The translations under genes were made by a program, and so were the position numbers. This document shows positions 4,716-29,170 of a DNA stretch of 49,569 bases, piece by piece (position 1 is the first letter of the stretch; the number at the start of each line of letters is the position of its first letter). Below the pieces are notes generated by a model. The model had not been told where the DNA came from and searched no databases. It saw only the letters and a program-made list of their open reading frames with translations. Source of the DNA: Bacteroidota bacterium (lineage in GTDB: Bacteria > Bacteroidota > Bacteroidia > NS11-12g > UBA955); assembly GCA_018333525.1 (NCBI GenBank), contig JAGXTF010000004.1, forward strand, positions 1 to 49,569, written 5' to 3'.

Positions 4716-4716
4716 A

Positions 4717-8591: not shown

Positions 8592-8624
8592 CCATTGCCG
8601 AATGACAACAAATTGCGAGAAAGA

Positions 8625-9164: not shown

Positions 9165-9363
9165 TTTAGTTGGCTTTTACATGTAAACTATCCTGTAATT
9201 TGGTTTCCGACAGCTTGTAGGTCTCAATGATCTTCCAAGCCATAATGCAAACATTCACAATATATTCCATGTGTAAGACAAAGAAGAATTGTCATATTTC
9301 ATATTTTTTGTAAGGATTAGTAATACCAGGCGACTTCGAGTATAGGCTAACCTAAAAAATCAA

Positions 9364-9885: not shown

Positions 9886-9896
9886 CAATTGAACGC

Positions 9897-11030: not shown

Positions 11031-11095
11031 ATCCATTTTTCCCGTGATGAATAATAAGAATTACGACATCTAAAATAAACTATAAAATAAACTAT

Positions 11096-11530: not shown

Positions 11531-11586
11531 CTAGTCCAAAATACATAACTTGCTTGGCATATTCTGGGTTGGCTTAAGTTCGACAT

Positions 11587-12272: not shown

Positions 12273-13925
12273 TTAGCTCGCGCAGCAGCTAAGTTTTGAA
12301 ACGTCTTTCTCGAACATGATAGCTGCCAATTTTATTCCTTCTCCTAATGTTAAATAGGGATAAAAACTTTCAGCTAAATCCTTTACAGTTATTCCAAATT
12401 TAATTGCCATACTTAATTGTTGAATAAGTTCACCGCCTTCAGGTGCTACTATTCTTGCTCCGATAAGTTTGTCGGTGTCTGTGTTGCGAATGAGTTTGAT
12501 AAAACCTCTTGTGTCGTTTGCTGCAATAGCTCTTGGAACATCTTTAAGTTCAATTTTAGAAACTTCAAACGGAATATTTTGGGCTTCTGCTTGTGCTTCG
12601 TCTAACCCTGCACCTGCTACTTGTGGGTCAGTAAAGACCACCCAAGGTAATGAAGAATAGTCGGCCTTATTTTCTGCTCCCGTAAATGCGTTTTCAACGG
12701 CTATTTTTCCTTCAAAAGCCGCTGTATAAACAAATGCTGGTGTATTGGTTACATCACCAACAGCGTATATGTTGGGCAAATTGGTTTCCATTTTTTCGTT
12801 TACCAAAATATGACCTGTTTTACTAAGTTCTATTCCGATATTCTGTAATCCCAATTTTTGGGTGTTCGGTTTTGTTCCTGACGCAACCACAATTTTTCCT
12901 TTTTCTATGATTTGTGTATAAGAACCGTCAGGACATTTGCAATGAATGATAGTTTCGCTTCCTTGCTTCTCAAATTTTACCGCCCTGAAATTGGGCAAAA
13001 TTTCTATGTCTCCTTTTCGCATTTGAGTTTCCAATGCTTCGCTGATGTCAGGTGTTTGTGTTCGTAATACTCTGTCCGTAAATTCGATTATGCGAATCTT
13101 TACGCCCAAACGATTATATGCCATTGCTATTTCCAACCCGATATAACCTGCACCCATAATTGTAATGCTGTCGGGTTTTTCTTCCAAGTCAAAAAGGGAA
13201 ACATTGGTCAGATAACCAATTTCGTTCAATCCTTCAATGTTTGGTATGTTGGTCGTGGCTCCTGTGGCTATGGTAAATTTTAACGCAGAATACTCTGTTT
13301 TACCATCAACTGTAATGGTTTTGTTGTCTTTAAATTCTGCCCAACCTGTAACCATTTTTAGGTTTTGAAAATCGCTTACCACATCCATATATTTTTTTTC
13401 CTGAAGTGTAGCGACTAATCTTTTCTTATCCTTGATTACTTGAGCAAAATCAATGTCAACACCTTTGGGTTTAATGCCAGTAAAGTTAGAATGTGAAGCG
13501 TGATAAGCCGTTTCGCCTGCACGGATTAGGTTTTTAGATGGCACACAACCAACATTTACACAAGTGCCTCCAAAATCTAATCCACCGTTTACCATTAAGG
13601 TAGATAATCCCAAATTTTCGGCTTTTATTGCTGCTGAAAATGCAGCCGAACCACCACCAATAATTATTAAATCAAAATGATTTCTGTCTGTATTGTCATT
13701 TTCATTGACCGCTTTTACTTTATAGTTTTTGGTTTCGTTAATGGTATTAACAATTGCTTCTTTGCTTGTTTTAGTTGGGTCAAACGAACATTCACAACTG
13801 CCGTTTGGGTAACTTACTTTGGCTTCTGATATACCTTCATTTTTTGAAAGCAATATTTCAATGTCTGTCGCACAATGGTCGCAGGTCATTCCTGTGATGT
13901 CAAGTTGTATGGTTTCTTTGTTCAT
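12273..13925 (-). CDS. merA: Mercuric reductase MerA
   Basis: 550 residues. An N-terminal heavy-metal-associated domain (GMTCDHCA, residues 13-20) is followed by a FAD-binding segment (DLIIIGGGSAAFSAA), the redox-active disulfide GTCVNVGCVPSKN and an NAD(P)-binding site (IMGAGYIGLEIA). The C-terminal dimer domain ends KLSCCAS, whose vicinal Cys pair hands Hg(II) to the active site in known MerA. The enzyme reduces Hg(II) to volatile Hg(0) with NADPH in the cytoplasm. Its ATG overlaps the restored reading frame of the frameshifted merP-like gene by 4 bp. There is no merB, so only inorganic mercury resistance is supported. Confidence 0.93.
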   Translation of the reverse strand: MNKETIQLDITGMTCDHCATDIEILLSKNEGISEAKVSYPNGSCECSFDPTKTSKEAIVNTINETKNYKVKAVNENDNTDRNHFDLIIIGGGSAAFSAAIKAENLGLSTLMVNGGLDFGGTCVNVGCVPSKNLIRAGETAYHASHSNFTGIKPKGVDIDFAQVIKDKKRLVATLQEKKYMDVVSDFQNLKMVTGWAEFKDNKTITVDGKTEYSALKFTIATGATTNIPNIEGLNEIGYLTNVSLFDLEEKPDSITIMGAGYIGLEIAMAYNRLGVKIRIIEFTDRVLRTQTPDISEALETQMRKGDIEILPNFRAVKFEKQGSETIIHCKCPDGSYTQIIEKGKIVVASGTKPNTQKLGLQNIGIELSKTGHILVNEKMETNLPNIYAVGDVTNTPAFVYTAAFEGKIAVENAFTGAENKADYSSLPWVVFTDPQVAGAGLDEAQAEAQNIPFEVSKIELKDVPRAIAANDTRGFIKLIRNTDTDKLIGARIVAPEGGELIQQLSMAIKFGITVKDLAESFYPYLTLGEGIKLAAIMFEKDVSKLSCCAS

Positions 13926-14277
13926 TGTGATTTCTTTTTAGTCGCTTCGCTGATGGTTACAGCTTTGTATCGTGCTTTTTCAATTGCCCTAATCATTTCA
14001 TTAGGATTTGTTTTAGTTGCGTCATATTTGATAGTGGCAACATCTCGGGATATTCTGCATTTTGTTCAATGACACCATCAATATTTTCAAGTACTACTGA
14101 AACGTGATTGGAACAACCCGCACAAGTCATTCCCGTGATTTTTAGTTTTACTGTCTTGATTTCGTTAACAGCATTATTGAAGGTTGATGTTTGTGCAACC
14201 TTACAACTGCCACAACCGCACATTTGAGTTCCTGCCAATAAAAGTAAACTTGATGCAAAGATTAAAATCGTTTTCAT
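13922..14277 (-). pseudogene. MerP-like HMA lipoprotein gene with a frameshift
   Basis: The uninterrupted frame covers 13993-14277 (94 residues): a lipoprotein-like signal (SLLLLAGTQMCGCGSCK), then a heavy-metal-associated motif GMTCAGCSNHV. After EYP, near 14041-14050, the frame goes wrong. Reading on in the other frame restores a normal HMA C-terminus (DVATIKYDATKTNPNEM, then IRAIEKARYKA) and ends at 13922, overlapping the merA start as ATGA. A single missing base explains this. The intact product would be about 118 residues, a periplasmic mercury scavenger passing Hg(II) to MerTP. Either the gene is inactive or the base is a sequencing error. Confidence 0.8.
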
Positions 14278-14320
14278 ACTTCCTTATTTAATTGAATTCT
14301 TAATAATTTGGTCAAAAAAA

Positions 14321-14989
14321 TTATTTACAACCGTTCGGTCCACAAACGTGTCCTGCTTTGCCGTGTGAAGGATTTACTTTTGTTTCTTCTCCTGAAACTT
14401 TGTAGCCTGTTCCATCAATCGCTTTGATAATTGTTGCTTTATCCGTTTTAGAAATGTCAAATTTCACATTAGCAGTTCCCTTTTCGTTATCTGCGGAAAC
14501 GCTAACAATTCCAGGTAATTCATTCACTGTTTGTTTTACATGTTCTTCGCAACTTGCACAAGTCATTCCGCTAACATTGAATTTTACTTCTTGAATGTTA
14601 TCAGAAGAAACTACAACCACTTCTTTGTCTACTTTCGGGTAAAAAATATGCCCGTAATATGGAAAAGCCATCATCAAAAATGCAAACACGGTTACAATCC
14701 CTAAAAAAATTTTGGTTTGCATAAAAGGCGGCTTCTCGTCTTCTTCGCAAGCACATTGCATTTCTTCGGCTGTGCGGGGTTTCAATTTTTGATACCAAGC
14801 AAAACCTAATACCAAAACGGTGATACCAAGTAGATAAGGTCTTGCAGGTTCTAACCAAGAAAATGATGAGGCAATGCCTCCTGCACCTGATATAAGGGCC
14901 AAAACTGGTGTAATACAACACAATGATGCTGCAATTGCTGTTAGGACACTTACTCCAGCAAGTTTTCCTGATCTGGTAACATTGTTCAT
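14321..14989 (-). CDS. merTP: Mercuric transporter MerTP (MerT-HMA fusion)
   Basis: 222 residues. The MerT part has three membrane helices, with the first-helix Cys pair SLCCITPVLALISG and a cytoplasmic CAC pair (EEMQCACEEDE). The C-terminal third is a periplasmic MerP-like domain with GMTCASCEEHVKQ, and the tail has a further CGPNGCK. MerT moves Hg(II) across the inner membrane to MerA; fusion with MerP is common in Bacteroidota. The start overlaps the arsR stop by 4 bp (ATGA) and the merP-like gene follows after 43 bp, so this is one operon. Confidence 0.9.
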   Translation of the reverse strand: MNNVTRSGKLAGVSVLTAIAASLCCITPVLALISGAGGIASSFSWLEPARPYLLGITVLVLGFAWYQKLKPRTAEEMQCACEEDEKPPFMQTKIFLGIVTVFAFLMMAFPYYGHIFYPKVDKEVVVVSSDNIQEVKFNVSGMTCASCEEHVKQTVNELPGIVSVSADNEKGTANVKFDISKTDKATIIKAIDGTGYKVSGEETKVNPSHGKAGHVCGPNGCK

Positions 14990-15366
14990 ACTGTTTCCTT
15001 TATTAAATTTTTGCCTGTGATGATTTTGAAAAATGGTCGAAGTAAAGTCAGTTGTTCAGGTTTGAGTGAATAGAAAATGGTTTGTCCATCTCTTCTTCCT
15101 TCAATAATGTTGCCGTCTTTGAGTTTTCGCAGATGTTGTGAAACCGCGGGGATGCTCATCCCTAAAATGTCTGATAAGTCGCAAGGACAAAGTTCCTTTT
15201 CTTCCTCAAGGAGGAACAAGATTTTTAATCTCACTTCATTTCCGGCTAGCGCCAGTAAATTACTCAACTTGCCAAATGCCTTTTCGTTCGCTTGTAAAGT
15301 TCTCCTGCAATTATCTATCTGAACCTTATCAGCAAACACCCTAATACAGGATTGATTGTTGTCCAT
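14986..15366 (-). CDS. ArsR/SmtB-family metal-responsive repressor
   Basis: 126 residues with the ArsR winged helix: NEVRLKILFLLEEEKELCPCDLSDIL, then the recognition helix IPAVSQHLRKLKDGNIIEGRR and the wing DGQTIFYSL. The Cys pair in ELCPCDL occupies the usual metal-sensing position (alpha-3 type site), and two more Cys lie near the N-terminus (SCIRV, NCRRT). It is first in the mer operon, so it should repress its own promoter and release it on metal binding. It takes the place of MerR, as in other Bacteroidota mer operons. A matching inverted repeat lies in the promoter at 15417-15440. Confidence 0.88.
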   Translation of the reverse strand: MDNNQSCIRVFADKVQIDNCRRTLQANEKAFGKLSNLLALAGNEVRLKILFLLEEEKELCPCDLSDILGMSIPAVSQHLRKLKDGNIIEGRRDGQTIFYSLKPEQLTLLRPFFKIITGKNLIKETV

Positions 15367-15396
15367 TATTTCTCTCTTTTGATGTTAATAACGCAG

Positions 15397-15429
15397 AAAA
15401 GGTACAAATAGTTTTCTTATTTAAGCAAA
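15397..15429 (-). promoter_or_regulatory. Promoter of the arsR-merTP-merA operon
   Basis: Read on the minus strand, TTTG (15429-15426) is followed after exactly 21 bp by TACCTTTT (15404-15397). This is one mismatch from the Bacteroidota -33/-7 consensus TTTG-N19-21-TAnnTTTG. It lies 31 bp before the arsR start. Confidence 0.6.
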
Positions 15430-15440
15430 TACTTAAATAA
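15417..15440. promoter_or_regulatory. Probable ArsR operator
   Basis: A perfect inverted repeat has 9-bp arms TTATTTAAG (15417-15425) and CTTAAATAA (15432-15440) around a 6-bp centre. The AT-rich TTTAAG...CTTAAA form is typical of ArsR/SmtB operators. It covers the -33 element of the mer promoter, so a bound repressor would block polymerase. Confidence 0.65.
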
Positions 15441-15525
15441 AGTTTTCAACAAGTCGTCATTTTTGTCAGAGGTGGGGAATTTAGCTCTTTTGGTTTTATC
15501 AATGGTTAGCTTGTGTGCGGGCAAA

Positions 15526-16860
15526 TCATAATATTACTCCCCTGGCTACCTTCAAAGCAAACTGTGCCTTGTTGTATTCACTTACCACCTCGAAATAATC
15601 AATTTGGGCCTGTAAATAAAACTGTTGTGCCTGAAACACCTCAAAGGGTTTTACTGTTCCCAATTTTTGCCGTTCAATGCTCTGGTTTAATGCTTCGGTG
15701 GTTAACTCCAAACCTTCTTTGACAATTTGTATCTGTTCCTTCCCAAGAATAAGGCGCTGTAGAGCATTTGCAATTTCTTCATTGATTTGTGATCTGAACT
15801 GCTCCGACTTTATTTCTTGAATTTTGATTTGACTATTGTATTGCTTCAAGTCGCCACCATATATTAAATGCCCAAGCGGAATATTCCAGGTAAAGGAAGC
15901 ATTAAACATCCCCGTCGGATATAGTTGTTTTGTTTCGGGATATTGCAAAGGAAACATTGGACTGACTGCACCATTTATTCTACCAAAATAAGAACCATAC
16001 GTTCCTATGCTGAATGTTGGAATCAGCAATCCGGTTGTTCCTATTTTCCGCTCTGTCTGTAAGGAACGAATGGTAAAATCAATGAATTTTATTTCTGATC
16101 TATTTTTATAAGTTGTGTCATTGACCGATAAAAGCTCATTCTGGAAATCCAATGGCAACATCACAGTATCAATGCTTACCAGTTTTACTTTGCTGTCAAG
16201 GTTGAGTAAACGCACTAATTCGGCTGACTTTTGATTGTATTTCGATTGTGCATTGAGCATTTCAATTTTTAAATGACTTTGATTGCTTTTCGACAATAAT
16301 AGTTCCGATTGATAACGCAGACCTGCTTCTACCTGAAGTGCGATTTGCTGAGTAATGGTGTCGGACTGTGCTACTAGGTTCTTGTAAGCAATCAATTTCA
16401 GTTGGGAGGTCTGCAAATCGTAGTAGGCTTTTATAGTTGCTAACAGCGTATTATTTCTCTCAGCCAGTGTTTCATAAGCGGAAGCCTGAACATGAAGTTT
16501 CGCGGATTTAGTTTTGTAGATACCTTCTGCAAAATTCCAATTGGTATTTAGTCCCAAGCCAGCCCGAAGATTTTGCCTGCTTACATCTAAAAAGAAACGT
16601 CCGTCCGCATTCATTGCAGCACCCCAAAGCTGATGTGTTTGTAAACCTGCATAAACTTCAGGTAGCCACCATTCTTTGGTTTTGGATAAATTGGCGGCTG
16701 CCAATTCTTGCTTTGCCTGAAACTCTTTTATAGTTAAATTATTTGCACCACCCATTTCCAAAACCGTTTGTAAATTGATTGGTAATGTTTCCTGTGCATT
16801 TGCCGTGAATGTTGCTGTCACCAATAGTGAAGCGACTAAATGTTTTATTTTATTTTTCAT
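15526..16860 (-). CDS. TolC-family outer-membrane efflux protein
   Basis: 444 residues with a signal peptide (HLVASLLVTATFTANAQ). Two long helical halves of OEP type are visible: LPINLQTVLEMGGANNLTI with KEFQAKQELAAANLSKTKEWWLP, and later the repeat of helices around ERQKLGTVKPFEVFQAQ. A strand region between (FSIGTYGSYFGRING) fits the barrel. TolC-like trimers form the exit duct of RND pumps. It starts 11 bp after the permease/adaptor gene stop and is last in that operon. Confidence 0.88.
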   Translation of the reverse strand: MKNKIKHLVASLLVTATFTANAQETLPINLQTVLEMGGANNLTIKEFQAKQELAAANLSKTKEWWLPEVYAGLQTHQLWGAAMNADGRFFLDVSRQNLRAGLGLNTNWNFAEGIYKTKSAKLHVQASAYETLAERNNTLLATIKAYYDLQTSQLKLIAYKNLVAQSDTITQQIALQVEAGLRYQSELLLSKSNQSHLKIEMLNAQSKYNQKSAELVRLLNLDSKVKLVSIDTVMLPLDFQNELLSVNDTTYKNRSEIKFIDFTIRSLQTERKIGTTGLLIPTFSIGTYGSYFGRINGAVSPMFPLQYPETKQLYPTGMFNASFTWNIPLGHLIYGGDLKQYNSQIKIQEIKSEQFRSQINEEIANALQRLILGKEQIQIVKEGLELTTEALNQSIERQKLGTVKPFEVFQAQQFYLQAQIDYFEVVSEYNKAQFALKVARGVIL

Positions 16861-16871
16861 CTTCGTTTCTT

Positions 16872-19800
16872 TTATTTAGTGATCAATTCTTTGATTTGAA
16901 CGCTTGCTCCGTTCGAGCAAAACTCTTTTCCCTGCACAACAATTTTGTCCGATAGTTTAATTTCTCCGCTTAGTAGCTCTGTGAATTTTTCATCTCGGAT
17001 ACCCGTTTTTACCTCAACTTTGCGAACGGTTCCATTTTCTATAACATATATGAAAGATTGGCCTTTGACGTTTCCGATTGCTTCATTAGGCACGGACAAA
17101 GCATCTTTGTGTCCGCTTCTTTGTATTTCAACTTTCGCATACATTCCCGAACGAATTTTCAAATCACCATTAGGTAAATCAATTTCTACTTTCATTGTTT
17201 TAGTGGTTTCGTTCAAACCAAACGCAATACGTGAAACTGCCCCTGAAAATTTTAAGTTGGGCATTTCAGGAAATGTAATTTCTACCATTGTTCCTTTGCT
17301 TATTAAAGCTGCATCCGTCTCGGAAACATCAATAGTCAGCCTAATTGGCTGAACGTCTTGAATTTCAAACAAAGGAATTGCATTGGAATTATTTAATCCA
17401 CTTTGAATTACTGCTCCTTTGTCAACAAAACGATTAACGATTACACCAGAAAAAGGTGCTTTCACATTCAGATAATTGATTTGTTGCAATACATTTTTGA
17501 GTTGAGCATTCGTGCTTTCATATTCTGCTTCCGTTTTCTCCACATCGGCAATGGTTGTTAATTGCGGCGTTTTTTCATAAATGCCTTTCAATCGGTCGTA
17601 TATAGATTTTTTACCTTTTAGTTCTGCTTCTAATTTTGATTTTTCGCTAAACAATTCTGGGTTTTCCAACACGGCAAGTACTTGTCCTTCTTTTACAAAA
17701 TCACCAATGTCGGCTTTCAGTTGTTGTATATAACCATTAGTCATTGCGAACAATTTTATTTGTTGATTTGGTTTTGCCGTTCCTGAAATTTGGAGCGAAC
17801 CGCTGAACTGGTGTTGTACAGGGCTTTCCACCAAAACAGTCGGTGTTTTACCACTTTCAGATTTTGTTTCTTGCTTTTTATTTCGATGGTTATCGGAATT
17901 ATTTCCGCAGGATGACACAAGTGCAACTACCAACGGAATGAACATTATATTTATTGAATTCATTTTTATTTTAGATTTTTTGTTGAGTAAAAAGAAAAGT
18001 ATCGGCACTACAAATAGTGATAGGAAGGTAGCTGCTAATACACCGCCGATGATAGCCCTTGCCAAAGGCACATTGGCCTCGCCGCCTGTTTCATAGCCCA
18101 ATGCCATCGGGAACAAGGCTAACACCGCTACTATGGCAGTCATCAGGATAGGGCGAAAACGGTTGGCAACACCTTCTTTAATGGCTTCCACAAGTGGTTT
18201 TCCATCTTTCAAAAGGTTGTTCATTTTGTCCACTAACAAATTGCAGTATGCAACGGTAATACCCACCATCATGATGATGCCCATCAGGGATTGTATGTTG
18301 AGATAGGTATTTGTCGCCAGCAGCATTGCTGTTACACCAATCAACCCTAACGGAATAACGGTGATGATAATAAGCGGCAGTTTGAACGACCGCAACAGCG
18401 GAACGATAACCAGATACACTAAAAGGATAGCAAGTATCAAGCCCAAACCGAGATTGCTAAATCCCTCTTGCATACTTTGTACTTCGCCCCGGATTTCTAT
18501 TTTATACCCTTCAGGAAGGCCTTTGCGAATCGCTTGAAGTTTGCTTTCAATTTCACCTGCAACAGAACCAATGTCCCTGCCTTCTACGTTAGCAAATATG
18601 TCCGTAACTCTTTGCAAATTCAGGTGATTGATTTCAATGGGGGCGGAAGTGAGTGAAGTTTTTGCAACGTTTTTTAATTGCGTAACCTGTCCGTTCGTAC
18701 CTTTCAGCGAAATGTTCTCTACTGACTGTGGATTGTCCAGTTCCACTTCAGGGTAAGTAACGCCCACGAAATAGTGATTGCCGTTTTTTTCATCAATCCA
18801 AAATGACGGCTTAAAATTCACTGATGAATTAAGTGCCGACACTGTGTTTTTCACGATATGCTCGGCATCAATACCTAACTGTGCTGATTTGGTGCGGTCA
18901 ATTTCCACCTTGATTTCTGGATGGTCATAACGCTGCTGAATGCGCACGTCTTCCGTTCCTTCAACCTGGTTGATGACATCCCGAACTTGGACAGCTATCT
19001 CATGCGCCTTATACAAATTGTTGCCGGTTACTTGCACGTCAATGGGTGAGGGTAAGCCAAAATTCAAGGCGCTGGTAACAATTCCACCTGTATTAAAAAT
19101 AAACTGCACACCAGGGAATTTTTCTTTCAGTTTGGGGCGGAGGGTTTTTACATAATCAGCTGTTTTAGTTTTGTACCCTTCTTTCAATTGCACATTTACG
19201 GTAGCATCCTGCGTTCCCGAATTGTTGGTATATGCCGCAGGCCAGTCGTTCAGAACACCTATGTTCGACACAATCAAATTGGCATCATCCCCAATTTCCT
19301 GTTTCAGAAAATGTTCAATGGCGGTAATGGTTTCTTCGGCTTTTTCTATGCGTGTACCGCTTTCCATTCTTACATCCACGGAAATTTGCCCCACGTCCAT
19401 TTGCGGAAACAGTTCGCGGCCTATTTGCTGAAAACCGAACAATGAAACGATAAAAAGGATCGCCACACCACCCAATACCCACCAACGGAATTTCAGGGCT
19501 TTATCTACGAGCTTTATATAACGGCTGGTGAGTTTGCTAATACCTTTATCAAAGGCTCGCAAAAAACCTTTTGGCTTGTGTTCGCCCTTGTATCCTTTGA
19601 AAAATGCTGCTGCCATTATTGGCACAAGCGTCATTGAAATAAAGCGGGAACCAATCATTGCCAGTGAAACGACAATAGCCAACGGTGTGAACAGGTATTT
19701 GGAAATACCCGTAAGAAAAACAATCGGAAAAAATACAATAATGATAGTGAGCGTTGTTACCAATACTGGCATGGCAACTTCTTTTGCTCCGTCGAAGGCT

Positions 19801-21065
19801 GCGTGTGCAGCAGTTTTCCCCAACTTCAGATGTTTGTCAATGTTCTCCAGCACCACAATACTGTCGTCCACCAGCAGGCCGATTGCAAGGGCGATGCCGC
19901 CTAATGTCATGCTGTTAATGGTATCGCCTGTGAAAAACAACCCGATAAAAGCGAACATGACCGAAAGCGGAATGCTCAACGCAACGATGAACGTAGAACG
20001 GAAGTTTCCTAAAAACAAAAACAAGGCAAGTGATACCAATACCAAGCCCAAAACGCCTTCCTTTAGCAGCCCGTTAATGCTGTGCCGCACGTAGGTGGAT
20101 TGGTCAAGGATGACGTCTAGGTTTACGGATTGGGGAAGTCGCTCTTTCAGCTCTGCAAGTTTTGATTTCACCGCCTCTACCGAAGCAATGGTGTTCCCAC
20201 CTGTGCGCTTATAGATTGGGATGTACACTTGCCGTTTACCATTGACATGTACAATGTTGGTCTGAATGGCGGAGGCATCCTTGGCATAGCCAATATCCTT
20301 TAGAAAAATTGGTGAGCCGTCTGCATTCATTTTAATAACGATGTTGTCGAAATCGCCCACTTTGGGTAGCATACCATTGGCGTTTACGCTGTAATTGATG
20401 TCGCCTATATTCACATCACCCGTGGGTATCATCACGTTATTGCGCTGCACAGCATCTATTACGTCCGTTTGCGACAGATTGTATGCCTGTAACTTGTCAG
20501 GATAGACATACATAAAAATCCGGCGCAGCTTTCCACCATACACCGCAGGGGCTATGATTCCATTTACCGAACCCAATAAGTTCCGCAGATCAAAATAGGC
20601 AATGTCGTAAAGCTGTTTCTCATTAAGGCTGTCACTGCTCACGGCAAGCAGCGCCAAAGGCGTGGTTGCGGTGGGGTCATAGGGCATTACCATTGGAGGT
20701 ACAGTCCCGGGCGGCAGGTAATACAGGTCGGACATGGCCAGCGACGTCACCTGAGAAAGTGCCGTGTTCGGGTCAGTACTTTCCCCGAAAAAGTCTTTCA
20801 CGATGCTAACGCCAATCAGACTTTTGCTTTCCTGTTTTATAATGCCGTTAGATTGTCCAGTCCAACGTTCAATTCTTGATGTAATGTCCTTCTCCATGGT
20901 TTCGGCAGGCATACCAGGATAGAGGGTCAACACTTGCACTGCAGAGGTGTTATAATTGGGTAGAATATCTACGGGAAGTCGTGCAGTTACGACCACGCTG
21001 ATTACCGCTATCAACAGTGAAAGCACGATAATCAGATATTTATTTCTGAATGCTAATTCTAACAT
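16872..21065 (-). CDS. RND efflux permease fused in frame to periplasmic adaptor
   Basis: 1397 residues. Residues 1-1034 are a complete RND permease: first helix NKYLIIVLSLLIAVISVVV, TM4 motif LAIGLLVDDSIVVLENI, and a last helix ending VVPILFFLLNKKSK. Residue 1035 is a Met at 17963 that begins a full adaptor: lipoprotein signal IMFIPLVVALVSSC, hairpin and lipoyl-like halves (IGDFVKEGQVLAVLENP, INYLNVKAPFSGVIVNRF). The two normally separate genes are joined without a stop. Removing one A from the A6 run at 17976-17981 would end the permease with TAA just before the adaptor ATG. The Asp pair in TM4 is that of hydrophobe/drug pumps rather than CzcA/CusA, so a metal substrate is not proven. Confidence 0.85.
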   Translation of the reverse strand: MLELAFRNKYLIIVLSLLIAVISVVVTARLPVDILPNYNTSAVQVLTLYPGMPAETMEKDITSRIERWTGQSNGIIKQESKSLIGVSIVKDFFGESTDPNTALSQVTSLAMSDLYYLPPGTVPPMVMPYDPTATTPLALLAVSSDSLNEKQLYDIAYFDLRNLLGSVNGIIAPAVYGGKLRRIFMYVYPDKLQAYNLSQTDVIDAVQRNNVMIPTGDVNIGDINYSVNANGMLPKVGDFDNIVIKMNADGSPIFLKDIGYAKDASAIQTNIVHVNGKRQVYIPIYKRTGGNTIASVEAVKSKLAELKERLPQSVNLDVILDQSTYVRHSINGLLKEGVLGLVLVSLALFLFLGNFRSTFIVALSIPLSVMFAFIGLFFTGDTINSMTLGGIALAIGLLVDDSIVVLENIDKHLKLGKTAAHAAFDGAKEVAMPVLVTTLTIIIVFFPIVFLTGISKYLFTPLAIVVSLAMIGSRFISMTLVPIMAAAFFKGYKGEHKPKGFLRAFDKGISKLTSRYIKLVDKALKFRWWVLGGVAILFIVSLFGFQQIGRELFPQMDVGQISVDVRMESGTRIEKAEETITAIEHFLKQEIGDDANLIVSNIGVLNDWPAAYTNNSGTQDATVNVQLKEGYKTKTADYVKTLRPKLKEKFPGVQFIFNTGGIVTSALNFGLPSPIDVQVTGNNLYKAHEIAVQVRDVINQVEGTEDVRIQQRYDHPEIKVEIDRTKSAQLGIDAEHIVKNTVSALNSSVNFKPSFWIDEKNGNHYFVGVTYPEVELDNPQSVENISLKGTNGQVTQLKNVAKTSLTSAPIEINHLNLQRVTDIFANVEGRDIGSVAGEIESKLQAIRKGLPEGYKIEIRGEVQSMQEGFSNLGLGLILAILLVYLVIVPLLRSFKLPLIIITVIPLGLIGVTAMLLATNTYLNIQSLMGIIMMVGITVAYCNLLVDKMNNLLKDGKPLVEAIKEGVANRFRPILMTAIVAVLALFPMALGYETGGEANVPLARAIIGGVLAATFLSLFVVPILFFLLNKKSKIKMNSINIMFIPLVVALVSSCGNNSDNHRNKKQETKSESGKTPTVLVESPVQHQFSGSLQISGTAKPNQQIKLFAMTNGYIQQLKADIGDFVKEGQVLAVLENPELFSEKSKLEAELKGKKSIYDRLKGIYEKTPQLTTIADVEKTEAEYESTNAQLKNVLQQINYLNVKAPFSGVIVNRFVDKGAVIQSGLNNSNAIPLFEIQDVQPIRLTIDVSETDAALISKGTMVEITFPEMPNLKFSGAVSRIAFGLNETTKTMKVEIDLPNGDLKIRSGMYAKVEIQRSGHKDALSVPNEAIGNVKGQSFIYVIENGTVRKVEVKTGIRDEKFTELLSGEIKLSDKIVVQGKEFCSNGASVQIKELITK

Positions 21066-21214: not shown

Positions 21215-21610
21215 TTAGATAAAAGGAGGTCCCCGGAGCGAAAATGAGGAAATTAAAGGCGCAGAACGGCAGGTGGGTTCAGGGGTGATAAAAAATGGCT
21301 GTTTTCGATGGCCTACATCTATTAGATTAAGAATCAGGGCTAAAGTTATAAATGTATAAATGCCCTTAGACGCTTTTTCTACCTGGGGGGGCTGGTAATC
21401 TGCAAGATGCAGGGAAAAGTGACCACATTCCATTGGAGGTAAAATATGCTGCCCCCCTTGTTGGGCTGCGAGTCTGTGCAACTCGCACGGACTTGGACCA
21501 TTATGACGGTGATGTTCGTGTCCAAAGGGATGAGCTATACAAATCACTTGCCAAGGGAAAAACATAATTCCCATTGTAAGGAGTAGCAAGATGGCTTTTG
21601 TTTTACGCAT
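21215..21610 (-). CDS. Small exported His/Cys-rich protein ahead of the RND pump
   Basis: 131 residues from the ATG at 21610 (a TTG at 21619 is also in frame). A signal peptide (KAILLLLTMGIMFFPW) is followed by a metal-ligand-rich part: AHPFGHEHHRHNG, SPCELHRLAAQQGGQH and MECGHFSLHL. Then comes a hydrophobic segment (GIYTFITLALILNLI) and a tail ending SLRGPPFI. Such small proteins often precede RND efflux operons in Bacteroidota. Metal binding in the periplasm is inferred from the His/Cys content. It lies 149 bp before the permease in the same direction. Confidence 0.6.
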   Translation of the reverse strand: MRKTKAILLLLTMGIMFFPWQVICIAHPFGHEHHRHNGPSPCELHRLAAQQGGQHILPPMECGHFSLHLADYQPPQVEKASKGIYTFITLALILNLIDVGHRKQPFFITPEPTCRSAPLISSFSLRGPPFI

Positions 21611-21661: not shown

Positions 21662-21990
21662 TTATACTTCTACTGCTGGTCTTCAGAGCAAGAGAACTTT
21701 GATACCAAATAGGACCGCAAAATCTCGTTATCCAACGGCAAACTCTGGGTTGAAACGCAACAAACAGAAAATCATTAATTTACGCAATAATTGTGTATTT
21801 TTTACTGATAACAGACTATTAACCATTACATTACACGTGATTCGGCTCCTCGTGCACCAATTTTGTACCTTTGCTGAGTATTTTTGAAAGGCAATCCCGT
21901 GCTACTTTGGTATTGCGATAGAATAAATGCTCGGTTTTTGAGAATGCGTGGTTGGAGAAATGATAGGTTGGAATTAATAGACCAGTTTAG
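21662..21990. repeat. 329-bp direct repeat, copy 1 (promoter plus decayed otsB start)
   Basis: This stretch is nearly identical to 25909-26237, with only about 18 differences by eye over 329 bp and one pair of compensating 1-bp indels. It contains the same promoter region and the first codons of otsB. Here the otsB start (ATGATAGG at 21960) runs into TAA after five codons because one T is missing. The two copies bracket the operon 22054-25602. The rest of the region up to 22053 holds only the leader of the next gene. Confidence 0.9.
21841..21873 (+). promoter_or_regulatory. Promoter copy 1, ahead of the T9SS/oxidase operon
   Basis: TTCG (21841-21844), 21 bp, then TACCTTTG (21866-21873). The -7 element is perfect TAnnTTTG; the -33 has one change (TTCG for the TTTG found in copy 2). 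It would drive the operon starting at 22054 with a leader of about 170 nt. Confidence 0.5.
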
Positions 21991-22053
21991 ATTAGTACCA
22001 CAATATTTAACTGTAAAAATACAAAAAAATCGTAACTTGCCCTTCCAATTGAT

Positions 22054-22839
22054 ATGAAGCAGATATTTTTGAACCTATCTGTCGGATTTTTAGGCATTTG
22101 CGCCTTCAGCGTTCAAGGGCAGACCCAAGCTACCAATTTTGACCTTACTGACTGTAGCGGCAAGAGTTGTAAGCTGTTTGACGTGCTTGACTCCGGCCAT
22201 GTGGTAGTAATGTGCTGGGTAATGCCTTGCGGCAATTGTACCGGTGGCGCTACAAAGTCCTTCAATGCGGCAAAGGCAGCGCAGGGCAATGCCAATCACA
22301 AAGTGTACTACTTCCTGATTGATGATTATGGGAACAGTGCCTGCTCGACAGTTACATCCTGGGGAGGATCTAATGGTGTGACCATGACTGCTTCCTATGT
22401 CAGGGCATTTTCGAATGCCGGAAACGCCATTAATATGACGAATTATGGTACAGCGGGAATGCCCAAAGCAGCGGTTATTGCCGGGGCCTCTCACAAGGTC
22501 TATTATAATGTTAACGGGTCATCATCCATAAATACTACAGCCATGACTGATTCTATCAACAAGGCAATTGCGGAAATGAATGCTGCCGGTGTTGGTATAT
22601 CATTGGCTACTGAAAAGACCGTTTTAGCACCAAATCCTGTTTCTAGTGAATTTAGGCTGACATCCGCTGTACCAGTTGAATGGATCACGATCAAAGATAT
22701 TTCAGGTAAGGAGATCATGACAGTGGTATTGGATGGTTTACAGATTGTCGATGTAGGCTTTCTGAATGCCGGTGTCTATTTTGTTCAATGCTTTAGTCCG
22801 GGCCATGAAGTTGAAACCATTAAGATTATCAAAAACTGA
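22054..22839 (+). CDS. Secreted thioredoxin-like protein with T9SS sorting domain
   Basis: 261 residues. A signal peptide (LSVGFLGICAFSVQGQ) is followed by a thioredoxin-like domain with FDLTDCSGKSCKLFD and VVVMCWVMPCGNCTGG, where CGNC is the candidate redox pair. A cis-Pro-like AGMPKAAVI comes later. The C-terminal 75 residues start TVLAPNPVSSEF and end GVYFVQCF...IKIIKN, a type IX secretion signal. The product should sit on the outer surface. It is first of four genes in the repeat-flanked cassette. Confidence 0.75.
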   Translation: MKQIFLNLSVGFLGICAFSVQGQTQATNFDLTDCSGKSCKLFDVLDSGHVVVMCWVMPCGNCTGGATKSFNAAKAAQGNANHKVYYFLIDDYGNSACSTVTSWGGSNGVTMTASYVRAFSNAGNAINMTNYGTAGMPKAAVIAGASHKVYYNVNGSSSINTTAMTDSINKAIAEMNAAGVGISLATEKTVLAPNPVSSEFRLTSAVPVEWITIKDISGKEIMTVVLDGLQIVDVGFLNAGVYFVQCFSPGHEVETIKIIKN

Positions 22840-22849
22840 TCATTGCGTA

Positions 22850-23518
22850 ATGAAAAAGCTGATTTCCACAGCTGCCATAGCCTTTCTGACCTTTCTGCTA
22901 TCGGCCCAAAGTTTTAAAATTACACCAAATGATACAATCATTGCCACGGCACCAGCCGGGGGAGTTGAAGTATATGATATTTGGCAGCTGAACACCGGGT
23001 CTAATACTATCATTTTGCATTGGAAGCCGGTAGGGGTGAGTATCCCGTCAGGCTGGGATTATTCCATGTGCGATCTAGGCACTTGCTATCCCGGTGTTCC
23101 CGGAGGCACTATGTCGCCCGTTTCGCCTGGTGATAGTGGCTTTTTGGGATTCAACGTAATTCCAGGAGGTTTGGGTGGTGTGGCTATTGTGCGCTGCTAT
23201 GTATATGCCGATAGCTTTATAAATGATGGAGACACTCTTACATGGATAATTACTTCGGACGCTAACTCTGGCTTGTCCGCATCTCATATAACGCAATTCA
23301 GTTTTTATCCCAATCCGGTGTCAGACCTTTTGCATTTTAACAGACCACTAAGAACAATCGAGGTTTTCGATATTCAAGGCAGATCTATCTTGCAGAGCTA
23401 CAATAGTGAATCGTTGCTGAATTCGATTGATTTATCAGCGGCCCATTATGGAGTTTATTTACTCAAAGGATTTGACGAGCAAAATCGGATGGTCACAGAA
23501 AAAATCTACAAAAACTAA
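22850..23518 (+). CDS. Secreted T9SS-sorted protein, cupredoxin-like
   Basis: 222 residues from the ATG at 22850, 10 bp after the previous stop. It has a signal peptide (ISTAAIAFLTFLLSAQS). A beta domain follows with NTIILHWKPVGVSIPSGWDYSMCDLGTCY broken into short conserved-looking turns; the single His and a CDLGTC pair might bind metal. The end is a sorting domain, FSFYPNPVSDLLHF to GVYLLKGF...KIYKN. No enzyme family is recognised. The neighbouring oxidase-like genes suggest a shared surface role. Confidence 0.65.
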   Translation: MKKLISTAAIAFLTFLLSAQSFKITPNDTIIATAPAGGVEVYDIWQLNTGSNTIILHWKPVGVSIPSGWDYSMCDLGTCYPGVPGGTMSPVSPGDSGFLGFNVIPGGLGGVAIVRCYVYADSFINDGDTLTWIITSDANSGLSASHITQFSFYPNPVSDLLHFNRPLRTIEVFDIQGRSILQSYNSESLLNSIDLSAAHYGVYLLKGFDEQNRMVTEKIYKN

Positions 23519-23521
23519 TTG

Positions 23522-24394
23522 ATGCAAAAAAAGTTAGTTGCGTATTCCTTGTTTGTTATCGCACTAACCGCAACAAATCAATTAGCGGCTTTGTCGCGCG
23601 ATACGATTTACATTAATCGCGGATTCTTTACAACTGTTGATACAATTTCATTTCCCTATCTGGCATTTAATAAAACTACAACTTTTAATAACTTAAACAC
23701 AGTCCTTCGGGTTGAGATCTACGACACCCTTGAGCTTACGGTCGTGAATAATGACAGTATTCCACACGGGTTTGATCTGAAAGGGGTATCGGGATACAAA
23801 TTGGGTTTATTTCCCGGAGCATCTGCAACCGTGAAGTTGAGCTCGAATTTAAGAAAGGCAATTTGTTATTTCGACCCCACCGATTACCCTTTGAATCGGT
23901 ACATGGGACTCGCGGGTATGATATGCTTCGATGACTTTGGCAATAAAAAAACAAAAAGATTTTATTGGAACCTGAAAGATCACGATAGCACATATAACAA
24001 GATTATTCCATTCGGTGCTACCGTGGATTTTAATACTTATTATCCAAATTATTTTACCATAAATGGGCTGAGCTTTCCACAATTACAGAACGATACAACT
24101 GCCGTCATTAATGGTAAAATTGGTGACACTATCAGGATATTCTGTTTAAACTCTGGGCAAAGTTCACACTCCATTCACTTCCACGGATTTCATACGAAGG
24201 CCATTTACCATAGTCAAATATTTAAAATAGATTGGGAAAAAGACACATGGGGAACTCCGTCAATGGAAACTATGGTACTGGAATTTGTGCCGGATAAATC
24301 CGGAAAATATAGTGTTCACGATCACAATCTAGTAGCTGTGAGCGGCGGTGGAGTGCATCCTAATGGTATGTTCATAATCATGTCCATACAATGA
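23522..24394 (+). CDS. Multicopper-oxidase-like protein with altered type-1 site
   Basis: 290 residues from the ATG at 23522, 3 bp after the previous stop. After a signal peptide (YSLFVIALTATNQLAAL) come two cupredoxin domains. The second has HSIHFHGFH and, near the end, SVHDHNLVAVSGGG followed by VHPNGM. This is the layout of the multicopper oxidase motif HCHxxxH...M, except that the type-1 copper Cys is Asp. The protein has no sorting domain of its own. It overlaps the next oxidase gene by 4 bp (ATGA), so the two are probably made together, perhaps as a complex sharing copper ligands. Confidence 0.7.
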   Translation: MQKKLVAYSLFVIALTATNQLAALSRDTIYINRGFFTTVDTISFPYLAFNKTTTFNNLNTVLRVEIYDTLELTVVNNDSIPHGFDLKGVSGYKLGLFPGASATVKLSSNLRKAICYFDPTDYPLNRYMGLAGMICFDDFGNKKTKRFYWNLKDHDSTYNKIIPFGATVDFNTYYPNYFTINGLSFPQLQNDTTAVINGKIGDTIRIFCLNSGQSSHSIHFHGFHTKAIYHSQIFKIDWEKDTWGTPSMETMVLEFVPDKSGKYSVHDHNLVAVSGGGVHPNGMFIIMSIQ

Positions 24395-25602
24395 GGAAAA
24401 TATTTTGGATAGCAATTTTTTGTTGCTCTGTTTCTAAATCAACGGGCCAAAGTACTATTCATAAAAATATTTTTCTGAGAAGTAATTTTGGAACAGATAC
24501 AATGTATGATGGGGTATCCTTTAGAGTCTTTGGACTGACGCATGCCTTAACAGCCTCGCCAAAAATACCAGCACCTATAATTTATTGTAACGAAGGAGAT
24601 AGTGTGGTTTTGAACGCCCTGAGTATTTCCCAGACGGACCACCATACAATTCACTTGCACGGTTTGGATGTTAATACCAGGAATGATGGCGATCCGGCGA
24701 CATCGTTCTATCTCTCACATCTGCAAGACACCACATACAGTTTCAGGGCGAGGCATGCTGGTTCCTACCTTTATCATTGTCATGTCGGAGATGTAGTTCA
24801 TGTCCAAATGGGGATGTACGGCATGATCGTAGTAAGGGCTGCCGGTGGAGCAAAGCAAATTTACACTGGTGGGCCTACTTATAGTAAAGATTACAACTGG
24901 CTGATGAGTGAGGTAGATAGAAGCTGGCATGATTCTATTCCTGTTCATGATACCAAAACGGATAGAATCAATTTACCACGTTATGTTCCAGACTACTTTT
25001 TGATCAACGGTAAGAGTGAGTGGGAAATTGGAGTTGATTCGACTATTCATGTGGTTGCGAGCCAAAATGAACCTGTATTGCTAAGACTTGCAAACATCGG
25101 ATTTTATGATAACAGAGTTATTTTTCCGAAATATCTTCAGGCAAAGGTTTACGAAAGCGATGGACGGATAATGCCCAAGGTAATTGCAACAGACACCTTA
25201 TTGATTTCACCGGGAGAGCGTTTTGGGGTCTTAATTCTACCCAATGACCAACAACAAGACAGCATCAGAATGGAGTATTTAAACATGAATACCGGATTAC
25301 CTGAGAATGTACAACATATCCCGGTTTCGGTTACTGGGATTTACACAAATACACAGGATGTGAATTTGGATAAGACAATTTCCGTATATCCGAACCCCAC
25401 TTCAGGCGTATTTAATATTACTTATAATTCAACAGATCTCTTAAATGTTGAACTTTTCAGCTCACAAGGAAAAGTACTTCTCAATTCAGCGATGATAATG
25501 GGAAATCTGACTCTCGACCTGAGCGCATTTCCCGTTGGGCTTTACTACCTGAGGATGACTTCGGATGACGCCATATTCACAAAAAAAATAATTAAGGATT
25601 GA
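24391..25602 (+). CDS. Multicopper oxidase-like protein with T9SS sorting domain
   Basis: 403 residues. It has a short signal peptide, then a cupredoxin domain carrying DHHTIHLHGLDV and SYLYHCHVGDVVHVQMGM, that is HxHG plus a full type-1 site (HCH, H, M). A second cupredoxin domain (PDYFLINGKSEWEIGV to SPGERFGVLIL) lacks obvious copper ligands. The tail, from SVYPNPTSGVFNIT to GLYYLRM...KKIIKD, is a type IX sorting domain. The type-1 site in domain 1 recalls copper nitrite reductase and two-domain laccases. Substrate (Cu(I), phenols, nitrite) cannot be told. Transcription likely stops at the hairpin 25723-25757. Confidence 0.78.
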   Translation: MRKIFWIAIFCCSVSKSTGQSTIHKNIFLRSNFGTDTMYDGVSFRVFGLTHALTASPKIPAPIIYCNEGDSVVLNALSISQTDHHTIHLHGLDVNTRNDGDPATSFYLSHLQDTTYSFRARHAGSYLYHCHVGDVVHVQMGMYGMIVVRAAGGAKQIYTGGPTYSKDYNWLMSEVDRSWHDSIPVHDTKTDRINLPRYVPDYFLINGKSEWEIGVDSTIHVVASQNEPVLLRLANIGFYDNRVIFPKYLQAKVYESDGRIMPKVIATDTLLISPGERFGVLILPNDQQQDSIRMEYLNMNTGLPENVQHIPVSVTGIYTNTQDVNLDKTISVYPNPTSGVFNITYNSTDLLNVELFSSQGKVLLNSAMIMGNLTLDLSAFPVGLYYLRMTSDDAIFTKKIIKD

Positions 25603-25908
25603 TCTTCATTACCGGAATTTGATAGATTCTAACACCCATGTCTTCAGGGGATAGCCAACTTGTCCGGGATGACTGGGTTATCTGTGATGATCCAGATGGG
25701 GGTCTCAACAAAAGTCTTCAGTCGCAAAAGCCGTTGTGTGGCTTTTGCGTTTTTATTCCGCTTGCTGCTTTGGATCAGACTTCAAAAATGCAAAGAAAAA
25801 TCTCACTTCGTCAAGGCTTTTGTCGGTCGGATGACTGGATCAATTTCGAACTTTTTTGAGGATGACTTGGCTGCCTTCCTGCCTATGTTAAATAAGGATT
25901 GCTAGATG
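25603..25908. other. Gap after the oxidase operon
   Basis: About 300 bp without a convincing gene. It holds the terminator at 25723-25757. Open frames run through the terminator hairpin and have no family resemblance, so they are not called. The second 329-bp repeat begins at 25909. Confidence 0.6.
25723..25757 (+). terminator. Rho-independent terminator of the oxidase operon
   Basis: A perfect 10-bp stem CGCAAAAGCC (25723-25732) / GGCTTTTGCG (25740-25749) with a 7-nt loop is followed by TTTTTATT. It lies 120 bp after the last cassette gene and isolates the cassette from otsB. Confidence 0.85.
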
Positions 25909-26237
25909 TTATACTTCAACTGCTGGTCTTCAGCGCAAGAGAACTTTGATACCAAATAAGACCGCAAAATCTCGTTATCCAACGGCAAACTCTGGGTTGA
26001 AACGCAACAAACAGAAAATCATTAATTTAGGCAATAATTGTGTATTTTTTACTGATAACAAACTATTAACCATTACATTACACGTGATTTGGCTCCTCGT
26101 GCACCAATTTTGTACCTTTGCTGAGTATTTTTGAAAAGCAATCCCGTACTACTTTGGTATTGCGATAGAATAAATGCTCGGGTTGGAGCATGCTTGGTTG
26201 GAGAAATGATAAGTTGGAATTTAATAGATCAGTTTAG
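25909..26237. repeat. 329-bp direct repeat, copy 2 (intact otsB promoter and start)
   Basis: This is the partner of 21662-21990. It continues into the functional otsB start at 26206, so it is probably the original copy, with copy 1 left behind by insertion or duplication. Both copies have the same length and are 4247 bp apart. Confidence 0.9.
26088..26120 (+). promoter_or_regulatory. Promoter of otsB-otsA
   Basis: TTTG (26088-26091), a 21-bp spacer and TACCTTTG (26113-26120) match the Bacteroidota promoter TTTG-N19-21-TAnnTTTG without a mismatch. The otsB ATG lies 85 bp downstream. Confidence 0.7.
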
Positions 26238-26961
26238 GACAGCGAAGAGCAAGCTCGTGCTGTTGGATTACGATGGTACGCTGGTTCCATTTGAATCTAC
26301 CCCGGACAAGGCGAAGCCCACGACACACGTTGAATCTTTGCTCGAAAAACTGAATCAGAGAAGCCAGACTCAGGTAATAATAATCACAGGCCGTCAATTT
26401 CAAAGTATCGATCGCTTCCTAGGTCACTTACCTATTACCATAATAGCTGAACACGGCGCTATGATAAAGGAAAACGGGAACTGGGAGCCACGTCTACATT
26501 TAGACAATAGCTGGAAAGATCATGTGATGGTAATCCTCAAAAAATGGACATTGTTTTGTCCCAATTCTTTCGTTGAAAATAAATCATTTTCCATTTCCTG
26601 GCACTATAGAAATGCCGATGAATTCCTTGGGACTTCGTGCGCTTGGCTATTACAAATGGAAATTAAAGGCATGTTTACTAGTAAGAACTTTAAAATTATT
26701 GAGGGGAATAAAGTGGTTGAAATTATTCCAGCAAATATCGGGAAGGGAGAGGCAACTGAATACGTCTTAAACCGATGCCCGCATGACTATATTCTCTCCA
26801 TTGGCGATGATACAAGCGACGAAGACATGTTCAGGGTACTGTCTGCTTCTGAAGAATATCACACCGTAAAAGTTGGAACTGGACACACAGCGGCCAAACA
26901 TAGAGTCGACCACGTTGAAGGAGTTCTTTGGTTACTTGAAACAATTGCGAATGAAGTTTAA
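26206..26961 (+). CDS. otsB: Trehalose-6-phosphate phosphatase
   Basis: 251 residues from the ATG at 26206, the start shared with the decayed repeat copy. HAD-phosphatase motifs are clear: VLLDYDGTLVPFES (nucleophile Asp), IITGRQFQSIDRFLG, AEHGAMIKENGNWE and GDDTSDEDMF (metal-binding Asp). It removes phosphate from trehalose-6-phosphate in the cytoplasm, the last step of OtsA-OtsB trehalose synthesis. It overlaps otsA by 11 bp. The perfect promoter upstream suggests strong expression. Confidence 0.9.
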   Translation: MISWNLIDQFRTAKSKLVLLDYDGTLVPFESTPDKAKPTTHVESLLEKLNQRSQTQVIIITGRQFQSIDRFLGHLPITIIAEHGAMIKENGNWEPRLHLDNSWKDHVMVILKKWTLFCPNSFVENKSFSISWHYRNADEFLGTSCAWLLQMEIKGMFTSKNFKIIEGNKVVEIIPANIGKGEATEYVLNRCPHDYILSIGDDTSDEDMFRVLSASEEYHTVKVGTGHTAAKHRVDHVEGVLWLLETIANEV

Positions 26962-29170
26962 TCTAGCGCTTATATTTTCCATAATAATCGCCTCGGGCCT
27001 GGTTTCTTTCGGTTTCACTTATTACCAAATTTCAACTGAAAGGGCCAAACTGAATAATGAATTGGAGGCCAAAATCAAACAGGTCGTTCAAGACATATAT
27101 CAGGGAGATTACAACTTCTTAGACAGCATTTCCGAGAATAATATCGAGAAATTCGCCAAGCATCTAAGCGTAAAATACGGTTTGAAAGGGGTTGCCATTT
27201 ATGGTAACGAAAATCGATTTATTGGTAATCAAGAAATCGCCCAATTCAAGGGGCACTCTGTGGATTATGCCACACAATCATTAGCGGCAGACACAGCTTT
27301 TGGAAATTTCATAAGCATTGACGGCAAAGAAACGTACCAATATATTCAGCCAATAACCAGAGACCATCTCGCCGCGAGCTCAGTAATTTTGTATGCTGAT
27401 GCTGAATATATTGATAATATTATCGGAGATATATGGTTTCGGAATTTTCTGCGATGGTTTTTTCAAGCATTTATTGTTTCTATCATTACGGTTCTGATAA
27501 TGAGGTATGGGATATTTAGTCCCATAAATAGAATCGTTAATTGGGTTAAATCAGCGCGAATGGGGGACGTAGAAGAGCTGGAACAAAACCCACCGGCAAA
27601 GTTTCTTGCTCCCCTTCATAAGGAAATAACACATATTGCCAGGGCCATGAACGAAGCAAAGGCTGCGGCAGAGGAAGAAGCAAAGCTGAGAAGTAAGTCA
27701 GAAGCTATTTGGACTCCAGAACGTCTGAAGATAGAGATGCGGAATTTGCTGCATAACAGAATGATGGTTGTCGTCTCCAACCGGGAGCCATATATGCACA
27801 TTCGGTCTGGGAAAGAGATCAAATGTATAGTTCCTGCCAGCGGCATGATTACAGCCATGGAGCCAATCCTTAAGGCTTGTGGAGGACTTTGGATTGCAGC
27901 GGCAAGCGGCGACGCGGACAAGGAGACTGTTGACGAAAACAACAGACTTCGTGTACCTCCGGAAGAGCCAAAATACACATTAAAGAGATTGTGGCTGACC
28001 AAAGAAGAAGAAGATCACTATTATTATGGTTTTTCTAATGAAGGAATCTGGCCGCTTTGTCATATTGCACATACCAGGCCGATTTTCCGAATCGAAGACT
28101 GGAGCTATTATCAGAAAGTAAATGAAGATTTTGCAAATGCAGTTCTGGAGGAAACAGCAGATGAGGAACAGCCCCTAATTCTGATACAGGATTACCATTT
28201 TGCACTTTTGCCTGAATTGATTAAAATGAAAAAACCGAAAGCTCGTGTTGCCATTTTCTGGCATATCCCCTGGCCCAATCCTGAATCATTCGGCATCTGC
28301 CCATGGCAAAAGGAAATACTTACCGGTTTGCTCGGGGCTGACCTTATCGGATTTCATACTCAATACCATTGTAATCACTTTCTTGAAACTGTGAACAACT
28401 CCTTGGAGAGCAGGGTTTTATGGGAGAGATTTTCAGTAAAGATGGGTGGACATACTACGTTAATCAAACCCTTTCCAATCAGCATTGACTTCACTATGAA
28501 GGATTTGAATAATGAAGAGAAAAAACCCGATCTGGAATTGCTTATGAAGGATCACGGAATCAAGACAAAATTCATTGGTATAGGTGTAGATCGTCTGGAT
28601 TACACCAAAGGAATAATTGAGAAGTTCTTGGCCGTAGAGTTGTTTTTGGAACAAAATCCGGCTTATCAGGGCAAATTCACATTCATTCAAATTGGGGCTC
28701 CGAGTCGCACGTCCATCAAGAGCTATGCAGACACAGCCATGGCTATCGAAAAAGAAGCAGACCGAATAAATATGCGGTTTAAAGCAAAGAACTGGAAGCC
28801 GATTCTTTTACTGAAAAAACACCACAGCCATGCCGAAATTCAGCCATACTACAAAGCTGCGCTATTCTGTATGGTTACCTCTTTGCACGATGGGATGAAT
28901 CTGGTAGCAAAAGAATTCGTATCGCAGCGGAATGATAATGACGGTGTGCTCATATTAAGCCGTTTTGCGGGGGCATCTCAGAAAATGCAGGGAGCGATCG
29001 TTATTAACCCTTACGATACCGAAAAATCGGCAAATGCCATAAAGCAGGCACTTGAAATGCCTGCCGAGGAACAACTATCACGCATGCAGTCTATGCGGAA
29101 GGAAATTCTCAGCAACAATATCTATTCCTGGGCAGCCGATTTATTGCGGACCATGGCGTCGATTCGTTAG
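26951..29170 (+). CDS. otsA: Trehalose-6-phosphate synthase with N-terminal sensor/HAMP module
   Basis: 739 residues from the ATG at 26951, chosen because it gives a clean first helix and overlaps otsB. Residues 4-26 and about 168-186 are membrane helices around a 140-residue extracytoplasmic domain. A HAMP-like segment follows (FSPINRIVNWVKSARMGDVEEL) and an Ala/Glu-rich helix (AAAEEEAKLRSKSE). The GT20 enzyme then runs from about 260 to the end: VVSNREPYMHI, FWHIPWPNPESFGICPW, GVDRLDYTKGI and LHDGMNLVAKEFV. It joins UDP- or GDP-glucose to glucose-6-phosphate. Ordinary OtsA is about 470 residues and soluble, so the front half is an added sensor-like anchor. Confidence 0.9.
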   Translation: MKFNLALIFSIIIASGLVSFGFTYYQISTERAKLNNELEAKIKQVVQDIYQGDYNFLDSISENNIEKFAKHLSVKYGLKGVAIYGNENRFIGNQEIAQFKGHSVDYATQSLAADTAFGNFISIDGKETYQYIQPITRDHLAASSVILYADAEYIDNIIGDIWFRNFLRWFFQAFIVSIITVLIMRYGIFSPINRIVNWVKSARMGDVEELEQNPPAKFLAPLHKEITHIARAMNEAKAAAEEEAKLRSKSEAIWTPERLKIEMRNLLHNRMMVVVSNREPYMHIRSGKEIKCIVPASGMITAMEPILKACGGLWIAAASGDADKETVDENNRLRVPPEEPKYTLKRLWLTKEEEDHYYYGFSNEGIWPLCHIAHTRPIFRIEDWSYYQKVNEDFANAVLEETADEEQPLILIQDYHFALLPELIKMKKPKARVAIFWHIPWPNPESFGICPWQKEILTGLLGADLIGFHTQYHCNHFLETVNNSLESRVLWERFSVKMGGHTTLIKPFPISIDFTMKDLNNEEKKPDLELLMKDHGIKTKFIGIGVDRLDYTKGIIEKFLAVELFLEQNPAYQGKFTFIQIGAPSRTSIKSYADTAMAIEKEADRINMRFKAKNWKPILLLKKHHSHAEIQPYYKAALFCMVTSLHDGMNLVAKEFVSQRNDNDGVLILSRFAGASQKMQGAIVINPYDTEKSANAIKQALEMPAEEQLSRMQSMRKEILSNNIYSWAADLLRTMASIR

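Follow-up and report, generated by a model that had tools for sequence, protein, structure and literature searches.

Duplications that are made by recombination and bordered by repeats are documented in bacteria (PMC3784515, PMC9946442). In Streptococcus pneumoniae, transformation yields merodiploids in which host DNA is duplicated through unequal exchange between sister chromosomes during uptake, and the duplications span ~100–900 kb with IS remnants at their borders (PMC3784515). In Burkholderia thailandensis, direct IS copies bracket large segments and allow their RecA-dependent loss or amplification (PMC9946442). The locus described here resembles the first system in that host DNA is duplicated, and the second in that its direct repeats could permit loss or amplification of what lies between them. 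It differs from both in scale and in the nature of its repeats: only 329 bp is duplicated, the repeat is the front of a gene rather than an IS element, and the bracketed segment is smaller than in B. thailandensis.

Two copies of the otsB front

The window (the whole 49,569-bp stretch of DNA that was analysed) is the entire contig C4 of a metagenome-like genome bin of 118 contigs with an estimated contamination of 3.8%. It carries two direct repeats of 329 bp each, copy 1 at 21662–21990 and copy 2 at 25909–26237, with 4247 bp between them; the coordinates, equal length, direct orientation and spacing in a preliminary description of this DNA were reproduced exactly on re-alignment. The two copies are 95.2% identical (14 substitutions and 2 single-base indels, alignment E ~1e-147), their longest exact common stretch is 70 bp, and both end abruptly. 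The differences cluster at the downstream end of the repeat, where 8 fall within 50 bp (simulated P 0.03), and this is the region in which copy 1 lost function. A scan of the entire 3.7-Mb bin, as the preliminary description had proposed, returned these two places only. With two genomic copies and no transposase between them, a reading of the repeat as a MITE, IS or transposon was rejected. The repeat DNA was undetected in 69 genomes of the same family (none of the same genus) apart from a 32-bp match, at 29 other loci with the same OtsA type (nearly all in Bacteroidota) and among viral contigs, and Rfam found no known RNA element in it, the sole Rfam match in the window being a tRNA.

The ATG at 26206 in copy 2 opens a 251-codon otsB (trehalose-6-phosphate phosphatase; 26206–26961, + strand; Pfam Trehalose_PPase, 4e-46), and the protein read from this ATG can be aligned at its N-terminus with other OtsB proteins. 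The repeat alignment ends within otsB at about codon 10, and copy 1 accordingly consists of the upstream region plus ~31 bp of the otsB start. One T is missing after 21973 in copy 1, and its otsB ATG reads M-I-G-W-N-stop. Because the ATG of copy 1 runs into a stop and that of copy 2 opens OtsB, copy 1 is the duplicate and copy 2 the native front. The preliminary description had also read the repeat as a duplicated otsB front, with start codons followed by a stop after five codons in copy 1 and an intact gene behind copy 2, and both features are seen. Direct repeats of host DNA that was there beforehand, otsB codons included, flank the insert on both sides, as expected of an insertion-duplication. 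Downstream lies otsA (trehalose-6-phosphate synthase; 26951–29170, + strand), whose product has a membrane/sensor-like N-terminal region of ~250 residues; OtsA of this type occurs in Bacteroidota, Acidobacteria, Omnitrophota and others.

Promoters of Bacteroidota carry a -7 box, TAnnTTTG, and those of B. fragilis also a -33 box, TTTG, while in F. johnsoniae a -33 box could not be identified (PMC7366714, PMC9723704). Copy 2 contains a perfect promoter-like TTTG-N21-TACCTTTG at 26088–26120; the contig has four sites of this kind in all. Copy 1 retains the -7 box, and its -33 TTTG has become TTCG at 21843. The earlier view that each copy includes a promoter and the otsB start thus stands for the start codon and the -7 box, which both copies have, but not for the intact -33 box, which belongs to copy 2 only. 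Doubt also falls on the suggestion that the cassette between the repeats gained a ready promoter from copy 1, given the lost -33 TTTG and a TAACTTGC box (22033–22040, + strand) 13 nt before the ATG of its first gene. This box fits, as a weak match, the alternative-sigma motif SM5 of F. psychrophilum, TAnnTTGY. Since the copy 1 promoter looks decayed, the cassette probably does not rely on it, with the TAACTTGC box as a weak candidate for a promoter of its own.

The copper-oxidase cassette and its surroundings elsewhere

Between the repeats lie the four + strand genes for exported proteins, closed by a terminator, that the preliminary description reported. Gene 1 (22054–22839) encodes a TlpA/thioredoxin-like protein with a weak T9SS sorting tail and 28% identity to a protein encoded in the metal cluster of C108, another contig of the bin; gene 2 (22850–23518) encodes a small protein with a T9SS sorting tail; gene 3 (23522–24394) encodes a cupredoxin/multicopper-oxidase half (Cu-oxidase_2); and gene 4 (24391–25602) encodes a multicopper oxidase (Cu-oxidase_3, Cu-oxidase) with a T9SS sorting tail. 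A 12-pair intrinsic terminator follows at 25723–25749 (+ strand). The Cu-oxidase domains exceed the Pfam cut-off in both genes 3 and 4. Three T9SS signals had been claimed; Por_Secre_tail, the T9SS C-terminal sorting domain, exceeds the Pfam cut-off in genes 2 and 4, and falls below it in gene 1 (24.6 vs 27 bits). From the domain content and the neighbouring metal genes, the predicted role of the cassette is secreted copper oxidation or copper handling. A domain search found no recombinase or transposase in the cassette, all four genes being of T9SS/cupredoxin/oxidase type, and with no recombinase among them, a site-specific integrative element of the tyrosine-recombinase kind was rejected. 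The multicopper oxidase is apparently split into two adjacent genes here (23522–25602, + strand); in one other genome (G156) it forms one reading frame.

Among 395 genomes sampled from the class, 15 others have gene 3. A gene 4 homologue adjoins gene 3 or shares its frame in all 15, and a gene 2 homologue lies near the oxidase pair in 5, while otsB, otsA, the RND pump, MerA and TANGO2 are near the pair in none of the 15. These observations support the cassette as a unit that occurs independently of otsB in other genomes. Searches of 23 genomes of the same family did not find the cassette and gave T9SS-tail or weak matches only, and those of plasmids yielded just distant oxidases, the majority from halophilic archaea. 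OtsB as a query against GTDB genomes gave no match. Repeats around an oxidase gene in G067 were considered as a parallel and set aside, as they are dispersed short repeats that are found elsewhere in that genome too.

The space that separates the cassette from copy 2 holds a relic of a tRNA-Pro 3′ tail and its downstream palindrome (25640–25880, − strand), which surrounds the terminator and extends past it. The relic comprises a tRNA-Pro 3′ tail, the palindrome and a second tail, a layout similar to that of the units that follow tRNA-Pro(CGG) of contig C31 and tRNA-Pro(TGG) of C108, and its alignment scores against these two tRNA-Pro units of the bin (104 and 81) are well above the maxima of shuffled controls (61 and 46). 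The oxidase operon of G315 lies between two tRNA-Val-tail/palindrome units with the same orientation, one of which follows a tRNA-Val gene; in G032 the operon abuts tRNA-Gly; and the other metal/oxidase cluster of the bin begins behind tRNA-Pro(TGG) on C108. All of this would fit an operon that came from a tRNA 3′ end, either on an element that uses tRNA attachment sites or as the neighbour of one, with 25640–25880 as the old boundary and the duplication of the otsB front as a later or separate event. We consider this origin possible but unlikely: the stretches examined for 13 of the 15 other operons contain no tRNA, an integrase is lacking, and ordinary tRNA terminator regions, copied by some other route, could account for the palindromes. 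It is compatible with an insertion-duplication, and both can hold; the relic is a lead to the earlier location of the operon, not a proof of it. As a separate observation, a palindromic unit of ~200 bp, with a copy of the tRNA 3′ tail at its end, follows tRNA-Pro genes in the bin (G000:C31:12178–12445, L051:11200–11610); it is in tandem on C31, and similar units follow tRNA-Val in G315.

The left flank and contig C108

To the left of copy 1 lies a divergent efflux operon, whose promoter-like site (21648–21617) abuts the end of the repeat. Its first gene encodes a small His-rich exported protein (21218–21610, − strand), and the metal-resistance genes at 12273–21065 (− strand) encode the mercuric reductase MerA, MerT-HMA, an ArsR-type regulator, the outer-membrane efflux protein OEP and, in fusion with its adaptor, an RND pump. 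Beyond them, a TANGO2-like gene (11587–12249, + strand) marks the left edge of the accreted region; its 3′ end is shortened, with a product of 220 aa vs 251 aa for the C108 homologue and ~30–40 residues fewer at the C-terminus.

Between 4.2 and 9.9 kb of the window, contig C108 has the same gene order, over nine genes of 69–87% identity (L050:1–9634 on C108 compared with window 4203–29170). After these genes C108 has TANGO2, otsB and otsA in a row. The gap of ~630 bp between its TANGO2 and otsB contains no cassette, repeat or mer/RND metal genes, and its DNA in front of otsB cannot be aligned to the repeat. Relative to C108, nearly all of the DNA from 12.25 to 25.9 kb of the window (~14 kb) is extra. 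Because C108 is without the metal genes, the repeat and the cassette, the ~14 kb that separates TANGO2 from otsB in the window is accreted DNA made up mostly of metal genes, with the cassette as one part. The preliminary description, which had the cassette inserted at otsB, was right about the duplicated otsB front and too narrow about the extra DNA, which in this comparison spans the mer genes, RND efflux genes, repeat and cassette. C108 may be a paralogous segment or may come from a co-binned relative; another gene of the window, a putative anmK named from its sequence, occurs once in the bin, which speaks against wholesale mixing without settling the matter.

Between the window and C108, OtsA is 88% identical, OtsB only 48% and TANGO2 43%, and in other pairs with similar OtsA identity OtsB reaches 68–75%, far above this value. 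A swap of the TANGO2–otsB block from another lineage, as the 43–48% identity against 69–88% for the neighbours might suggest, was not upheld for otsB. The window and C108 OtsB proteins are sisters in a tree (support 0.998), and fast divergence is therefore at least as likely as a swap.

In two genomes (G084, G090), RND/efflux genes adjoin homologues of the left genes of the window (sigma factor or YceI, TANGO2, DinB-like and others), so parts of the metal block have an older association. The set of tRNA_anti-like, YceI, thioredoxin, sigma factor with small partner, DinB-like and TANGO2 genes (2455–12249) also recurs beside OEP–RND efflux genes in genomes of other families (L208, L210). The RND pump and its HlyD-type adaptor lipoprotein occupy one frame of 1397 codons with no stop (16872–21065, − strand). 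This fusion is conserved at 79–81% identity in G084 and G044, which belong to other families, other matches being ≤61%, which suggests that the fusion is real and that lateral transfer is possible; searches of plasmids with the RND protein gave generic matches only, at <60% identity. Elsewhere in the window, a gene for a 1578-codon signalling protein (44831–49567, − strand) contains internal DNA repeats with ~525-bp spacing and 72–79% identity, and adjoins two response-regulator-like genes.

Origin of the duplication and comparison with known systems

On balance we favour, with some confidence, the reading that the repeats are the scar of an insertion-duplication made by homologous recombination with DNA that carried the otsB front. 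It is favoured because the repeat occurs just twice, its directly oriented copies end abruptly and otsB codons are duplicated with it, and because the oxidase pair is never near otsB elsewhere and C108 is without the cassette. The following account of the donor, of the sequence in which events took place and of the promoters is inferred, and so would be any excision in nature. The split multicopper-oxidase operon would have entered between the divergent metal-efflux operon and otsB, on incoming DNA that also carried the 329-bp otsB front and recombined there by homology, either as a circle or in an unequal exchange between sister chromosomes. The product would have had the order copy 1, operon, copy 2, otsB. 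Copy 2 would have remained the working promoter and start of otsB, and copy 1, stranded upstream, would have decayed through a frameshift at the start and loss of the -33 box, the copies now being 5% apart. Recombination between the copies had been expected to remove the cassette and leave otsB working; a crossover made in silico, with the flanks joined by script, indeed gave an intact 251-codon otsB. Taken alone, the junctions at 21661/21662 and 25908/25909 favour no single recombination route.

The main rival to insertion-duplication is a tandem duplication followed by replacement, in which the segment with the otsB front was doubled and the oxidase operon then took the place of the otsB–otsA body behind copy 1. 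The sequence of copy 1 is precisely that of a truncated otsB front, tandem duplication by unequal sister exchange is documented during transformation (PMC3784515), and a second otsBA locus does occur in the bin. That second locus has no copy of the repeat, however, and self-comparison of the contig revealed no remnant of otsB or otsA in the 63 bp between copy 1 and the cassette or after the cassette. As it also requires two events, we think this route rather improbable.

Wider still is the proposal that the split multicopper-oxidase/T9SS operon is a small mobile module with no recombinase of its own, which would settle at tRNA 3′ ends and gene fronts with duplicated host DNA around it and could be lost by recombination; we regard it as speculative and give it little credence. 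Even less probable is a module kept for reversible recombination, in which the repeats persist as substrates through which some members of a population would lose or amplify the copper operon. Elsewhere, repeats are known to mediate RecA-dependent loss and gain (PMC9946442), and the 70-bp identical core, the direct repeats 4.2 kb apart and an excision that leaves otsB whole would suit such a module. Any direct repeat would permit loss or amplification, however; the copies have drifted 5% apart with copy 1 decaying, and a comparable bracket surrounds only one of the 15 other operons (that of G315). An assembly artefact that joined two strain variants of one locus is scarcely credible despite the metagenome-like, 118-contig bin and its 3.8% estimated contamination: the copies differ at 16 positions and lead into different unique DNA, and a repeat-collapse misassembly is unlikely because their longest exact shared stretch is only 70 bp, a length that common short-read assembler k-mers exceed.

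Insertion with duplication is a type of event already known, and the locus is informative rather than exotic. Read as an insertion-duplication, the scar shows how accessory metal genes can be added beside a sugar-stress operon without breaking that operon. The secreted copper-oxidase operon itself is widely scattered in Bacteroidota and possibly mobile. As with tyrosine-recombinase elements, the target gene remains whole and one of its ends is present twice; unlike them, the cassette contains no recombinase gene and the repeat is 329 bp, the usual attachment core being far shorter. The locus also has the marks of a circle integrated in the Campbell manner: host DNA repeated in direct orientation, one truncated copy, one copy with the intact gene, and the possibility of clean loss. 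It departs from that model in that no donor circle is seen here and the copies are 5% diverged, and this divergence implies that the event is old or that the donor was a related strain.
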